Shown here piece by piece: positions 11,659 to 16,527 of a stretch of 64,000 bases of DNA; position 1 is the first letter of the stretch; every line of letters begins with the position of its first letter. Under the pieces are notes generated by a model, which saw nothing but the letters and a program-made list of their open reading frames with translations, was not told the origin of the DNA and searched no databases. Position numbers and translations under genes: made by a program. Source of the DNA: Qipengyuania oceanensis (lineage in GTDB: Bacteria > Pseudomonadota > Alphaproteobacteria > Sphingomonadales > Sphingomonadaceae). The stretch lies in NCBI RefSeq assembly GCF_009827535.1, contig NZ_WTYN01000001.1:1674001-1738000 (forward strand), read 5' to 3'.

Positions 11659-12360
11659 CTACGCCGCTCCCTTCGAGGCGGCGCCTTCGCCGGCACTGCC
11701 GCCCGCCTGCTTGAGCGCGGCGATATTGGCCGCATAGCGCTCCGGCCCGCCTTTGAAGGTGGCACTGCCCGCGACCAGCACGTCAGCCCCTGCATCGATG
11801 CACAGTTTCGCCGTTTGCGCGTTCACCCCGCCATCGACCTCTAGGTGGATCGGCTTGCCGAGCTTGTCGATCGACTTGCGGATCGCCTCGATCTTGCGCA
11901 GTTGCGAATGGATGAAACTCTGCCCGCCGAAGCCCGGATTGACGCTCATCACCAGGACCAGGTCGACTTCTTCGAGCAGGTAGTCGAGCATCTTGGCCGG
12001 AGTGCCGGGATTGAGCACCACCCCCGCCTTCTTGCCGAGCGCCTTGATCGCCTGCAGCGTGCGATGGATGTGGGGCCCTGCCTCGGGATGGACGGTGATG
12101 ATGTCCGCGCCCGCTTCCGCGAACTCCTCGAGATAGGGATCGACCGGCGCGATCATCAGGTGGACGTCGAAGGGCTTGTCGGTATGCGGCCGCAGCGCCT
12201 TCACCACCGCCGGACCGATGGTGATGTTGGGGACGTAATGGCCGTCCATCACGTCCACGTGGATCCAGTCGGCTCCTGCCGCATCGATAGCGCGAATCTC
12301 CTCGCCCAGCCGGGCAAAATCGGCCGAGAGGATCGAGGGCGAAATGAGCGGTGCGGACAT
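11659..12360 (-). CDS. rpe: Ribulose-phosphate 3-epimerase
   Basis: A 233-residue TIM-barrel epimerase interconverting ribulose 5-phosphate and xylulose 5-phosphate. It begins with the typical [17 protein letters not shown] and shows [18 protein letters not shown] with the metal-binding histidine and catalytic Asp, then [12 protein letters not shown] and VDGGVN for phosphate binding. The C-terminal tail after [14 protein letters not shown] is a short Gly/Ala/Lys extension. It is the first gene of the minus-strand run that continues into the heparinase-like gene and purH. Confidence 0.96.
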
Positions 12361-12510: not shown

Positions 12511-12780
12511 ATGGCCACTCCGCGCAAGCTCACCGACAATTTCGTCGCCACGACCGTCGACGACGAGATCGTTATCGTGGACATGGCTGGGGGCGAGCTG
12601 TTTTCGCTCAAGGGCACGGCACGCGCGGTCTGGGAAGCGATCGACGGCGATACACCGGTCGATGCCATCGCGCAGGCGATGGCGGCGCGCTACGACGTGA
12701 CGCCCGACGAAGCGGGAGCGGATATCGCAGCGCTGGTCGGCGAACTCGAGGCCGCGGGACTGGTCGCCGGGCGGTCCTGA
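12511..12780 (+). CDS. PqqD family protein (RiPP recognition element, lasso B1-like)
   Basis: An 89-residue protein with the PqqD fold: an N-terminal beta region (DNFVATTVDDEIVIVDMAGGELFSL in two strands), then GTARAVWEAIDGD, and helices ending in VGELEAAGLV. PqqD-like proteins bind leader peptides of ribosomally made, modified peptides and deliver them to modifying enzymes; free-standing versions beside an asparagine-synthase-like enzyme are the B1 proteins of lasso peptide clusters. The next two genes, a 45-aa peptide and an asparagine-synthase homologue, follow in the same orientation, so this is probably their recognition protein. Confidence 0.85.
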   Translation: MATPRKLTDNFVATTVDDEIVIVDMAGGELFSLKGTARAVWEAIDGDTPVDAIAQAMAARYDVTPDEAGADIAALVGELEAAGLVAGRS

Positions 12781-12839
12781 GTGAACGAGCCTTTGCAGAT
12801 CGCTCGAGAATCCGTATGGTGCGGGTTCGGAAGTCGCCA

Positions 12840-12977
12840 ATGTACGAAAAACCCAGCCCCAAGCGCCCCGAGCGCGCGCCCTGGCGCAGGCCCCGCCTCG
12901 AGCGGCTGGGCGCTATCCGCGACATCGCCGGACCTCCGATTCCCTTCCTGCAAGCGGCCGGCAACAAGCATTCCTGA
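12840..12977 (+). CDS. Candidate RiPP precursor peptide with lasso-type leader motif (45 aa)
   Basis: The ATG at 12840 follows a GGAAG ribosome-binding site with 6-nt spacing and encodes 45 residues between the PqqD-like and asparagine-synthase-like genes. Residues 15-30 read W-x2-P-x-L-x3-G-x5-A, matching the lasso leader pattern YxxPxLxxxGxxxxxT, with Trp for Tyr and Ala for the usual Thr; GAIRDIA parallels the common GSFRDLT. The remaining 14-15 residues (GPPIPFLQAAGNKHS) would be the core. They contain no Asp or Glu, which a classical lasso macrolactam needs at position 7-9. The product may therefore be unusual. Confidence 0.7.
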   Translation: MYEKPSPKRPERAPWRRPRLERLGAIRDIAGPPIPFLQAAGNKHS

Positions 12978-12998
12978 GCCTGCGCGCGTCGCATTGCG

Positions 12999-14861
12999 AT
13001 GATTGCCGCGCTTCACGGAGGGCCGTTTCCCGACGGAGCCCGGAAAGCAGTCGCACGTGCCCTGACGCTGGGCCGGGGGGCGGCGCGAGACAGCTCGGGC
13101 GCACTCACCGATTTCCAGTGGCTTGGCCCGGCCGGACAGCATTTCGGCCGGTTTGGCCCGGTCTGCGCACTGGTGCAGGGATGGATCGACAATGCCGGTG
13201 ACCTTGCCGGCCAACTCGAACTCGCCGATGCGCATCCCGCCCGGGTCTATGCCGCGGCGCTGGTCCGCTGGGGGGATGACGCTGACCGCCACGTGGTCGG
13301 CAACTATGCCGCCATCGCCGAACTCGCCGACGGAAGCCTGCGCCTCGCCCGCTCGCCATGGGACGCGCCGCCGCTCTACCACCACCACGCAGCCGGCAGC
13401 ACGGTCGTCTCGCCGCTCTTGCGCGCGATCTTTGCCGCAGGGGTGCCGCGCCGGCTGGACTACGACCGGGTCATCGACGAACTCGCCTACGTTTGGCGCG
13501 ACGGCGAGGAGCGCGGCTGGTACCACGATGTTCTGCAAGTCCCGCTCGGCTGCGCGATAACGTACGGATCATCGGGGCGCAGGCTGGACAGATGGTATTC
13601 GGTCGACGAGCTTCCGCAGGTCCGGTTCGCCGATGATCCGGACTACGTCGAGGCGGCGACCGCCCTGCTCGACGAGGCGGCCCGTAAGGCACTGGCAACA
13701 TGCCGCCGCCCTGCCATCGCGCTGTCCGGCGGGCTCGATTCTCCGCTCGCTGCGGCCGCGCTGACACAGGCCATGCCCGAACCGCAGCGGCTGACCGCCG
13801 TCACCTTTGCGCCGCATCCCGATTGGGACGGCATCGCGCCGCCGGGCACGATCGGCGACGAAACCGAAGTCGCCCGCGCTTTCGCGGAACACAACGGGCA
13901 GATCGAGCTGCACGAGGCCGACCCGCAGCAGGGCGGCTTCGACTTTCGCGCCGACGAGATGTTTCGCGCGATGCAGGTCTACGCCCCCGGACTGGCCAAC
14001 GTGGGCATGATGCACGGTGTCTGGGCGAAGGCGGCCGAGCTGGGATGCGACATGCTGTTCACCGCCGACCTGGGCAACCAGACCGTGAGCGATGCGGGCC
14101 GCTGGGCCTATGTCGAATACGCGCGGCGCGGCAAATGGGGCGAACTTGGCAAGCTGCTCGATGCGCGCGCGGGCGACAGCCGCAGCATGGCACGCAAGAT
14201 CGCCGCGCTCAGCATCCTGTCGCAACTTCCGGCGGCGGCACGGCGGATGCTGCGCGGCGTGGTCCACCCCGAAAGGCGCGACATGACCGCCTTGTTCACG
14301 CTGTTGTCGGCCCGTGCGCGACGAGAGAGGCGCGGCGCCTGGAACGACGTGACCCTTGGCCGAAGCCGTAGGGAGGTGATTCGCAATGCCGCGCTGCAGG
14401 CAAACGGGCCCGCTGCCGACGTCCACCTCGCCTTCGAGCAGCTTTACGGGCTGCGCCGCCGTGACGTCATGGCCTATCGACCGCTCGTGGAGTTCTGTCT
14501 CGGCCTGCCGACCGAACAATTCGCGAGCCAGGGCGTCGAGCGCCGCCTTGCACGGCGGATGGGCAAGGGCCGGTTGCCCGAGGCACATCGCCTCGCAGCG
14601 GCCACGGGCCAGCACAACGTCGACTGGCATGCCCGCCTGACGCCTCGGCGCGAGGAATTGCTGGCCTATACCGACGCGCTCGCCGGTCACCCGTGGCTGT
14701 CCGAAACGATCGACCTGTCCCGGATGCGCGACCTGCTCGAACGATGGCCCGATACGTCGGACTTTTCGTGGGACGAGGGCATGTCGCGCGCCATGGCCCT
14801 GCCGCGGATCGTCCTCGCCGCGAGATTCATCGCCATTGCCGAGGGGCGCAACGATCTGTGA
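12999..14861 (+). CDS. Asparagine synthase-related protein (lasso cyclase-like)
   Basis: A 620-residue homologue of AsnB. The N-terminal glutaminase-like domain begins MIAALHGG and lacks the Cys2 nucleophile of true glutamine-dependent AsnB. The ATP-pyrophosphatase loop ALSGGLDSPLAAAAL (around residue 242) is intact. Loss of Cys2 with retention of the synthase loop is typical of lasso peptide isopeptide-forming cyclases (C proteins) and related amide-forming enzymes. The gene starts 21 nt after the candidate precursor and 0.2 kb after the PqqD-like gene. No B2 leader protease or exporter is adjacent. Confidence 0.85.
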   Translation: MIAALHGGPFPDGARKAVARALTLGRGAARDSSGALTDFQWLGPAGQHFGRFGPVCALVQGWIDNAGDLAGQLELADAHPARVYAAALVRWGDDADRHVVGNYAAIAELADGSLRLARSPWDAPPLYHHHAAGSTVVSPLLRAIFAAGVPRRLDYDRVIDELAYVWRDGEERGWYHDVLQVPLGCAITYGSSGRRLDRWYSVDELPQVRFADDPDYVEAATALLDEAARKALATCRRPAIALSGGLDSPLAAAALTQAMPEPQRLTAVTFAPHPDWDGIAPPGTIGDETEVARAFAEHNGQIELHEADPQQGGFDFRADEMFRAMQVYAPGLANVGMMHGVWAKAAELGCDMLFTADLGNQTVSDAGRWAYVEYARRGKWGELGKLLDARAGDSRSMARKIAALSILSQLPAAARRMLRGVVHPERRDMTALFTLLSARARRERRGAWNDVTLGRSRREVIRNAALQANGPAADVHLAFEQLYGLRRRDVMAYRPLVEFCLGLPTEQFASQGVERRLARRMGKGRLPEAHRLAAATGQHNVDWHARLTPRREELLAYTDALAGHPWLSETIDLSRMRDLLERWPDTSDFSWDEGMSRAMALPRIVLAARFIAIAEGRNDL

Positions 14862-15062
14862 GCTGCGCTCGGGCAGCGATCCGCGCTCGCCACGCCCTTT
14901 GAAGGTGAACGGCGAAGGCTTACGCAATTAAGCCACAATTCAGCGGCAACGGGCCATTATTGGTGCACATTGGGGGCCGATCGGCGCGCGCGTCGCGCCG
15001 GATTTCCCCTTGCGATTTCCGCGAAAGGCACAATTTGCGTGCCGGAAAGAACACGTTCCACG

Positions 15063-15569
15063 ATGAACATGACGACAAAACTCTCGACCGTTATCTCCGC
15101 CGCGGCGGCGACCGCCATGGTGTTCGCGATTCCGACTGCGGCCCAGGCCCAGTACCGGCAGACCATCTCGAACAATCCGGCCAAGTGCCAGTCGGGCGGC
15201 GGCAAGCCGGCCGTCTGGATCACGATCAACAACGTCTCGGCATCGCGCGGCACACTGCGCGTGCAAAGCTACCGCGGCACGTCGGCGGACTGGCTCAAGA
15301 AAGGGCGCTGGCTCAGCCGCATCGAACTGCCGGCCAGGGCCGGGCAGATGAACGTGTGCATGCCCGTGCCCGAAGCCGGGACCTATGCGATCGCGATTCG
15401 CCACGACCTCAATGGGAACGGTGATACCGACCTCAGGGAAGACGGCGGCGGCATGTCGAACAACCCGTCGATTAACATCTTCAATCTCGGCAAGCCGAGC
15501 CATACGAAGACTGCCTTCAGCGTCGGCAACGGGGTCAAGTCGATCACGATCAACATGCGGTACTGGTAA
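15063..15569 (+). CDS. DUF2141 domain-containing secreted protein
   Basis: A 168-residue protein with a clear Sec signal peptide (LSTVISAAAATAMVFAIPTA, cleavage after AQAQ-type residues). The mature domain contains the DUF2141 signature: AGTYAIAIRHDLNGNGDTD, in which D-x-NGNG-x-D resembles a calcium-binding loop, followed by GGGMSNNPS. Function of the family is unknown. The start at 15063 was chosen because the signal peptide begins there. A related paralogue lies at 20835-21332. Confidence 0.85.
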   Translation: MNMTTKLSTVISAAAATAMVFAIPTAAQAQYRQTISNNPAKCQSGGGKPAVWITINNVSASRGTLRVQSYRGTSADWLKKGRWLSRIELPARAGQMNVCMPVPEAGTYAIAIRHDLNGNGDTDLREDGGGMSNNPSINIFNLGKPSHTKTAFSVGNGVKSITINMRYW

Positions 15570-15596: not shown

Positions 15597-16505
15597 TCAG
15601 CCGCCCCGTTTCGCTTTCCATAATTCCCACAGGACGCCCGGCGCGGCCAGCAGCGGGTATTTCTCGCGGAAGGGAGTGACTTCGAGCGCGACGCCCGTGT
15701 GGCGCTCGATCTTCCAGGCCGCATAGCGCGAGGCGCCGTCGAATGTCGTACTCGCCTTGGCGAGGCGCACGAGGTTGAGCGGCTTGCCTAGCCGCCTTCG
15801 GCTTGCCCACCAGTCGCGCACACGCGCCTTCTGCGGCTCGGGCATGTGCGGAATGATGATCTCGCCGCTATCGGTGCCGCCCGCACGCTCGAACGCGATG
15901 CCCTGCGCGGCAAGCGCCAGCGGCAGCAAGCCGTCGAAGTGCGCCGCATTGACCGACAGGATCGAATCCTCGCGTCCGGGCTTCTCGACCCGGAACTCGG
16001 CTTGGTAGGTCGCGCGAAACAGCGCGCGCCAGAAGTCTTCGGCCGTTCCCTTTTCCGGGCCCAGTGCCACGGCCAGCCGCGCCGCCGTCTGCGCCGCTGC
16101 ACCGATCGCATCGCGCACGGCATCCTCGCTGGCCGCCTCGCGGCTCCAGACCAGCGCCGAAGGCTGGACGAAACGGGCCCAGATGGTCGTATCGCGCAGC
16201 TCGCCGCGCGCGGCCTCGGCAAAGGTCTCCATCGCCATCGTCGCGACCTTCGCGCGCAGCGTCTCGCCCTCGTAATCCCACTCGTGATAGCTGACCCTCG
16301 GCCAGATCCTCTCGCGCTGCGGGCCAGGCAGCAGGATGTAGAAGTCGAGCACGCCTTCGCGCGATCCGGTTCGCAGGTTCGAACCGTAGAAAAGCACGGC
16401 CAGCGCATCGCTGCCCTGCGCGAGCCTGGCGGCAAAGGCGCGTGCGGCAGGGTCCACATCGCGCGCAAGCTGCGCCTCCACGCGTTCGGCCAGCGCCTCG
16501 CTCAC
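15597..16505 (-). CDS. Uncharacterised protein, possible Tam41-like nucleotidyltransferase
   Basis: About 302 residues. Near residue 40 it has LFYGSNLRTGSREGVLDFYI, a GS-x-n-D pattern of the nucleotidyltransferase fold, and later a segment (AKVATMAMETFAEAARGELRD, then WARFVQPSALVW) that loosely parallels Tam41/Mmp37, the CDP-diacylglycerol synthase known from mitochondria. The adjacent upstream gene is a diacylglycerol kinase, which would make its phosphatidate substrate. This assignment is inference from weak motif similarity. The GTG at 16505 has a GGAG ribosome-binding site; a TTG at 16523 is the alternative. Confidence 0.55.
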   Translation of the reverse strand: MSEALAERVEAQLARDVDPAARAFAARLAQGSDALAVLFYGSNLRTGSREGVLDFYILLPGPQRERIWPRVSYHEWDYEGETLRAKVATMAMETFAEAARGELRDTTIWARFVQPSALVWSREAASEDAVRDAIGAAAQTAARLAVALGPEKGTAEDFWRALFRATYQAEFRVEKPGREDSILSVNAAHFDGLLPLALAAQGIAFERAGGTDSGEIIIPHMPEPQKARVRDWWASRRRLGKPLNLVRLAKASTTFDGASRYAAWKIERHTGVALEVTPFREKYPLLAAPGVLWELWKAKRGG

Positions 16506-16527
16506 GAGGTTCGCTCCACGCAACCGC

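Follow-up and report, generated by a model that had tools for sequence, protein, structure and literature searches.

The 64,000-nucleotide stretch of the Qipengyuania oceanensis genome analysed here (the window) contains three neighbouring genes, B1, A and C, which may direct a pathway for a lasso-like ribosomally synthesized and post-translationally modified peptide (RiPP) in which the leader peptidase, B2, acts in trans and an amide instead of an acid occupies the ring-closing position of the core, a reading that the sequence comparisons let us hold with moderate confidence. That the three are real genes coding for lasso-type parts is confirmed. They follow one another on the forward strand in the order given in a preliminary description made from the DNA letters alone. 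B1 (12511-12780) encodes a PqqD-type RiPP recognition protein of 89 amino acids, which scores 69.8 bits against PF05402 (cut-off 23.4) and is the single match to that profile in its own genome; against the NCBIfam lasso PqqD model NF033530 it reaches 45.8 bits, under the cut-off of 70. The precursor A (12840-12977), known from its translation and from relatives that adjoin orthologous cyclases, has 45 amino acids and would consist of a leader, MYEKPSPKRPERAPWRRPRLERLGAIRDIA, and a core, GPPIPFLQAAGNKHS, carrying Gln8. A candidate ribosome-binding site, CGGAAG, ends 6 nucleotides 5' of its ATG, in agreement with the claim that the peptide has a site of its own, and an in-frame ATG 24 nucleotides upstream is a possible alternative start. 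C (12999-14861) encodes an asparagine-synthetase-like cyclase of 620 amino acids with 41.7 bits to PF00733 (cut-off 21); residue 2 is Ile, so that the Cys2 nucleophile is lost, and the SGGLDS motif is kept at residues 243-248, both as already described. Its score against the NCBIfam lasso cyclase model NF033535 is 87.4 bits, below the cut-off of 525. The genome (2.87 Mb in 14 contigs, completeness 100) contains four PF00733 matches; that of C scores highest and alone spans the domain. An AlphaFold2 model of C (pLDDT 86.3, pTM 0.89) predicts a full asparagine-synthetase fold, with the hydroxyamidotransferase TsnB9 (Z 27.1 over 515 residues, 3.3 Å), beta-lactam synthetase (Z 26.6) and E. coli AsnB (Z 25.4) as the closest solved folds. 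The asparagine-synthetase-like cyclase expected of a lasso pathway therefore appears to be present.

The argument for an amide at the ring position comes from the family of precursors to which A belongs. These were collected by means of a motif confined to the leader, with the core positions left unconstrained; since it limits leader positions -16, -13, -11, -7, -3, -2 and -1, conservation there is partly by construction. From 56 distinct motif matches we dropped three unrelated frames (loci L055, L210 and L218 in our numbering) and three peptides of Asp9 cyclases (L150, L155 and L156), which left 50, seven of them (L231, L233, L234, L239, L242, L243 and L245) from loci whose cyclases are about 49-53% identical to C and were left out of the cyclase tree. 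The residue at the ring position is Gln8 in 43 of the 50 distinct cores, Gln9 in two, Asn9 in two, Glu8 in two and Asp8 in one. Every core has an Asp, Glu, Asn or Gln at positions 8-9, as against 6 to 28 of the 50 for windows that do not include position 8. Gln makes up 26 of the 798 residues elsewhere in the cores, and Gln8 itself is encoded by CAG in 31 cases and by CAA in 12. No Asp or Glu occurs anywhere in 28 of the 43 Gln8 cores, among them GPPIPFLQAAGNKHS, and 29 have none at positions 7-9. The first core residue is Gly in 37 of the 50, and some cores begin with Asn1 or Gln1. To our knowledge, all lasso peptides carry an acid at the ring position. Since GPPIPFLQAAGNKHS offers no Asp or Glu at core positions 7-9 in either of the two possible registers, the pathway is not filed here as one for a lasso peptide. 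The match to the A-B1-C part of lasso peptide clusters seen earlier thus holds for the parts; a plain lasso product does not fit, because the core is devoid of Asp and Glu, a point absent from the preliminary description, and because the family mostly has Gln at that site.

In the cyclase tree, built on 61 rows of best matches and fetched regions, a subset of the matches in the 72 genomes with a C-like cyclase, the Gln-type family forms one clade of 42 members (support 100/100), with the Glu8 and Asp8 members nested inside it and three canonical Asp9 cyclases outside. Acid and amide have thus been interchanged at one site within a single cyclase clade. This interchange is best explained if the ring closes at position 8, whose residue, whether acid or amide, is therefore probably where the reaction takes place. 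The loss of the catalytic Lys of asparagine synthetase was considered as a mark of the Gln8 cyclases and rejected, since it is also absent from related cyclases beyond the clade. A ranking of specificity positions between 36 cyclases of the Gln-type clade and 11 outgroup cyclases included positions 200, 356, 530 and 539; these are explained equally well by clade history, and therefore nothing is concluded from them.

The leader conforms to the lasso pattern Y/W-xx-P-x-L: W, P and mostly L are present in all 50 leaders, although the aromatic residue and P were required, and L restricted, by the motif. The distance from this motif to Gly1 is one residue below the usual, and if the core starts at Gly, the last leader residues are D-[V/I]-A, which places Val or Ile at -2. 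Whichever register is taken, a Gln and no acid stands within the 7-9 window. The A frame is under mild purifying selection, with a pooled pN/pS of 0.54 over 11 peptides and values of 0.26-0.29 against the three nearest. Peptide A matches no Pfam or NCBIfam family, and three of its relatives are likewise without an NCBIfam match. That A might be a chance open reading frame was rejected, as a peptide of the same family accompanies the orthologous cyclases of the clade: it lies beside 41 of the 42, and for the 42nd (genome G105 in our numbering) it is found on another contig together with B1. Neither of the observations that would have spoken against the preliminary description, a cyclase gene occurring without the peptide or a frame not kept in relatives, was made.

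As the preliminary description had noted, no B2 adjoins the locus. The genome does have a PF13471 protein, and exactly one, so that the idea of a genome without the protease was rejected. This solo B2 has 137 amino acids, lies on contig C1 at 871254-871667, about 815 kb from C, scores 64.1 bits against NF033537 (cut-off 33), also matches PF13471 (Transglut_core3) above the cut-off, and keeps the peptidase residues Cys80 and His114. A B2 peptidase thus seems to be available to the pathway, though unlinked. Its neighbours to one side are acsA and a DUF326 gene; to the other lie genes for an acyl-CoA dehydrogenase, a GST and a fahA-like protein; gcdH for the acyl-CoA-dehydrogenase gene, and likewise maiA and fahA, are our own reading. 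In 60 Qipengyuania genomes, of which 23 have C and 31 a solo-B2 match, relatives of the solo B2 occur in 23/23 C-positive and 8/37 C-negative genomes (Fisher p=3.6e-10, a statistic that ignores kinship); among the eight C-negative matches, those in G425 and G437 are weaker (36% and 30%) and those in G444 and G462 partial. Twelve of the 26 B2 loci compared share one location 5' of gcdH. Together these findings favour the option of an unlinked protease, one of several that had been proposed for this locus. In 397 genomes sampled from the family in the Genome Taxonomy Database (GTDB), a C-like protein (E<=1e-20) is found in 72, PF13471 in 186 and PqqD in 130; PF13471 and PqqD both occur in 72/72 C-positive genomes, as against PF13471 in 114/325 C-negative ones.

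Across the 42-member cyclase clade, B2 is local in 17 genomes, on another contig in one (G105, a fragmented genome in which B1, B2 and A stand together away from the contig of C), of the trans type in 16 and otherwise placed in eight. The last comprise G297, with a local-type B2 that has moved, G158 and G088, with a B2 6-9 kb off, and G002, G119, G181, G231 and G115, with a B2 of a different kind. Twelve of the 16 trans-type B2s are upstream of gcdH, and in none of the 42 genomes were local and trans B2 found together, as judged by matches to the B2 of Q. oceanensis. In the B2 tree, the 12 gcdH-site proteins and four from the Pontixanthobacter group form one clade (100/98) separate from the local B2s (98/98), so that two distinct B2 clades accompany Gln8 peptides. 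From this and the cyclase tree it seems that the local peptidase was replaced by the trans B2, several times as judged by eye. That local B2 genes simply moved next to gcdH is unsupported in general, because the trans B2s form a clade of 16 rows of their own; the B2 of G297 alone looks like a relocated local B2.

Our proposal for the pathway is as follows. By analogy with its family, B1 would bind the WxxPxL leader of A, and the solo B2 would cut after Ala(-1), before Gly1, with Val or Ile at -2 as in the Bradymonas precursor. C, using ATP, would then activate the side-chain carboxamide of Gln8 in the freed core and join it to the amine of Gly1, giving a product with a ring of eight residues and a tail of seven. 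The textbook lasso reaction adenylates a carboxylate, and a carboxamide cannot be used in that way. For PesC of the nitrilobacillin pathway, an asparagine-synthetase-like RiPP enzyme, the available passages of a preprint (PMC13060819) report adenylation of a C-terminal amide to an AMP-imidate (AMP, adenosine monophosphate), on the way to a nitrile; if an N-terminal amine attacked such an imidate, an amidine would result. The likeness to the proposed C lies in the adenylation of a peptide amide, and PesC differs in acting at the C-terminus, making a nitrile and closing no ring. We tentatively suggest that in this peptide family of Erythrobacteraceae the side-chain amide of Gln8 (or Asn9) is adenylated and the N-terminal amine displaces AMP, yielding a macrocyclic amidine. 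Such an amidine would be the likeliest bond, followed by a lactam, whether ammonia is lost directly or Gln8 is deamidated first. The calculated [M+H]+ of linear GPPIPFLQAAGNKHS is 1533.817, which loss of NH3 (a lactam from Gln) would lower to 1516.791 and loss of H2O (an amidine, a nitrile or a head-to-tail ring) to 1515.807; for a core one residue shorter the corresponding values are 1476.796, 1459.769 and 1458.785. An ATP-binding cassette (ABC) exporter encoded beside C in most relatives would export the product; its gene is missing from the locus of Q. oceanensis. The presence of the exporter gene in most relatives suggests a secreted product, and for a conserved secreted peptide a role as a signal would fit at least as well as one as an antibiotic. 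What the sequences show are the genes, the conserved Gln8, the co-occurrence of B2 and its fixed location, and the predicted synthetase fold; the product and its ring are proposed from these, and any threading would be hypothetical.

A number of observations weigh against a trans-processed, amide-closed product. The last core residue, Ser in 49 of the 50 and Thr in one, is more conserved than Gln8, and the C-terminal carboxylate therefore competes with it as a target. Asp7 is present in 11 of the 43 Gln8 cores and Asp9 in four (one has both), and a canonical cyclase could use either. The core may also be numbered one residue differently, since a strict YxxPxL spacing would give Gln7 with Ala at -2. 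The 72/72 figure from the GTDB sample takes in every lasso-type C, beyond the Gln8 clade. The genomes in these counts are related and so not independent. The B2 of another kind in five of the 42 clade genomes has to be reckoned with as well. Trans-type B2 is also present without a Gln8-type C in G016, G127, G143, G314, G345 and several Qipengyuania, and in Pontixanthobacter it adjoins another RiPP-like cluster; it is therefore not exclusive to the Gln8 pathway. The loss of local B2 and exporter in Q. oceanensis could, moreover, be a sign of a decaying locus.

Several other explanations were weighed beside the amidine. Gln8 might be deamidated to Glu, by C or by another enzyme, and then form the usual carboxylate ring to Gly1, a normal isopeptide lactam, in which case nothing but the encoded residue and the gene layout would be out of the ordinary. 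The Glu8 and Asp8 members within the same cyclase clade are what one would expect if the final bond were the same throughout, and the modelled fold of C is of a carboxylate-activating synthetase type; yet no deamidase gene is conserved among the locus neighbours examined, and there is no evident reason why Gln should be kept in 43 of the 50 cores if Glu served. We regard this route as unlikely. Less probable still is that the C-terminus is the target, for example in a head-to-tail closure through the conserved Ser, with Gln8 merely a recognition residue. The near-invariant last residue is compatible with a C-terminally modified RiPP, and the asparagine-synthetase-like RiPP enzymes TsrC, ScdTA and PesC work on C-termini according to the available passages of PMC13060819. 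However, the peptides of the canonical Asp9 cyclases outside the clade end in Ser too, and the final Ser is therefore unlinked to the loss of the acid, while the constant Asp, Glu, Asn or Gln at 8-9 would be left unexplained. That the locus of Q. oceanensis is a decaying remnant which has lost its local B2 and exporter and no longer makes its product is improbable: neither gene is found with it, unlike in most relatives, but the three frames are intact, a B2 complete with the peptidase Cys and His is retained, pN/pS stays low against the nearest peptides, and the cores GPPIPFLQAAGNKHS and GPPVPFAQAAGNKHS (Q. intermedia) are near-identical despite a C identity of about 49-50%. Finally, transglutaminases use Gln, and B2 matches Transglut_core3, but transfer of Gln8 from an acyl-enzyme of B2 to Gly1 after the leader cut is very improbable, as it would leave a conserved cyclase without a job and the Glu8 and Asp8 members unserved, and two separate B2 clades accompany Gln8 peptides.

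The closest known systems are the lasso pathways with split B1 and B2, such as bsf of Bradymonas sediminis. The passages of PMC10368454 available on these show the same PqqD-type B1, Cys2-less asparagine-synthetase-like C, PF13471 B2, aromatic-xxPxL leader, Ile or Val at -2 and, as in most of the relatives described here, an ABC exporter D. In the loci of this study, by contrast, Gln or Asn stands where the ring would call for Asp or Glu, the locus of Q. oceanensis lacks B2 and D, and no kinase or nucleotidyltransferase was seen among the immediate neighbours. In the same passages, Duan and colleagues showed Val or Ile at -2 for Bradymonas BsfA and, in silico, for Sphingomonadales, and predicted Asp8 as the acceptor of BsfA; neither 'Gln' nor 'glutamine' occurs in the main text of that paper. 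Twelve of the 13 matching passages of a 2026 review (PMC13352647) mention no Gln acceptor, and the main text of a study of Qipengyuania genomes (PMC9241875) contains none of the words lasso, RiPP, antiSMASH and bacteriocin. Neither a lasso peptide closed through Gln or by an amidine nor an unlinked B2 was found reported in the openly licensed PMC literature, a weak absence. Reliance on an unlinked gene has a parallel in the citrulassins, judging from parts of PMC12971885, where the gene encodes a tailoring PAD enzyme and not a leader peptidase, and in the lanthipeptides with unclustered proteases in parts of PMC8960859, which likewise have a distant leader protease and belong to another RiPP class with another protease family. 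Metanodin, as presented in parts of PMC12670498, has an unusual first core residue, Asn, like the Asn1 or Gln1 of some cores here, but it is an expressed lasso peptide whose novelty lies at position 1 and not at the acceptor.

If position 8 closes the ring, there would be dozens of natural precursors with an amide where known lasso peptides have an acid, and lasso-type rings would extend past acidic acceptors. Asparagine-synthetase-like enzymes are already known to make lactams, amides and nitriles, and a new type of macrocycle would be added to these. As the enzyme clade would hold both kinds, Gln/Glu swaps would directly probe the chemistry of lasso cyclases. Much of the Gln8 family would escape search rules that insist on an adjacent B2 or on Asp/Glu as the acceptor. 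The gcdH-site B2 also provides a clear example of a core RiPP enzyme whose gene is fixed at a second place in the chromosome, and the peptide locus itself stays put across genera.

In all 18 other genomes compared, purH, a heparinase II/III-like gene, rpe, C, a DUF2141 gene and a gene for a 308-amino-acid protein occur together. In the window, rpe (11659-12360, reverse strand, PF00834), which presumably has no role in the pathway, is the left flank, and the DUF2141 gene (PF09912), on the forward strand at 14970-15569 counted from the first possible start (ATG at 15064), is the right one, as had been described; the gap between C and DUF2141 is 206 nucleotides. The 308-amino-acid gene (15597-16523, reverse strand, without a Pfam match) adjoins DUF2141 in all 18. 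The earlier statement that no exporter is adjacent is true of the window but missed that a gene for an ABC exporter, with PF00664 and PF00005 fused in one protein, lies directly 3' of C in 29 of the 43 loci checked, between C and DUF2141 in, for instance, L229 (6929-8590), L233 (6754-8427) and L240 (6756-8522). DUF2141 directly follows C in six (the window, G061, G245, G282, G085 and G115), and eight loci are undecided owing to a short stretch or no match. Because most relatives have the exporter directly after C, the window represents a pared-down version, which retains B1-A-C out of a fuller B1-(B2)-A-C-D arrangement. The 17 loci with a local B2 have the order B1-B2-A-C; rpe is adjacent in nine of them, the stretch is too short in seven, and G415 has none within 1.5 kb upstream. 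In G088, B1 is away from A and C, about 9 kb off alongside a B2.

Trans-type B2 was also seen in other surroundings. In G143, G314, G345 and G127, which have no C at E<=1e-20, a gene for a PqqD protein is some 5-10 kb away, and the B2 probably serves another cluster. Pontixanthobacter luteolus (G245) has a second RiPP-like cluster (L222, 1-10703, reverse strand) ending in a trans-type B2, in which frames resembling a glycosyltransferase, an asparagine synthetase (27% to C), PqqD, a sulfotransferase, HprK and an Asp-hydroxylase were recognized by eye; a similar gene run is listed in the available part of PMC10040529. The trans-type B2 of G245 may be shared by this second cluster and the Gln8 locus.

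Three stretches in viral contigs fit the pattern and none was confirmed as a viral copy. For 16 clusters that are more distant, a single motif failed to find a precursor in most loci, and the extracted reading frames of C in G142 and G405 contain no internal stops. In G015 (L050, 4200-4633), two tandem precursor genes with the cores GKPVPFRQAHNNRKS and GKPVPVLQDAGNRKS lie upstream of one cyclase.

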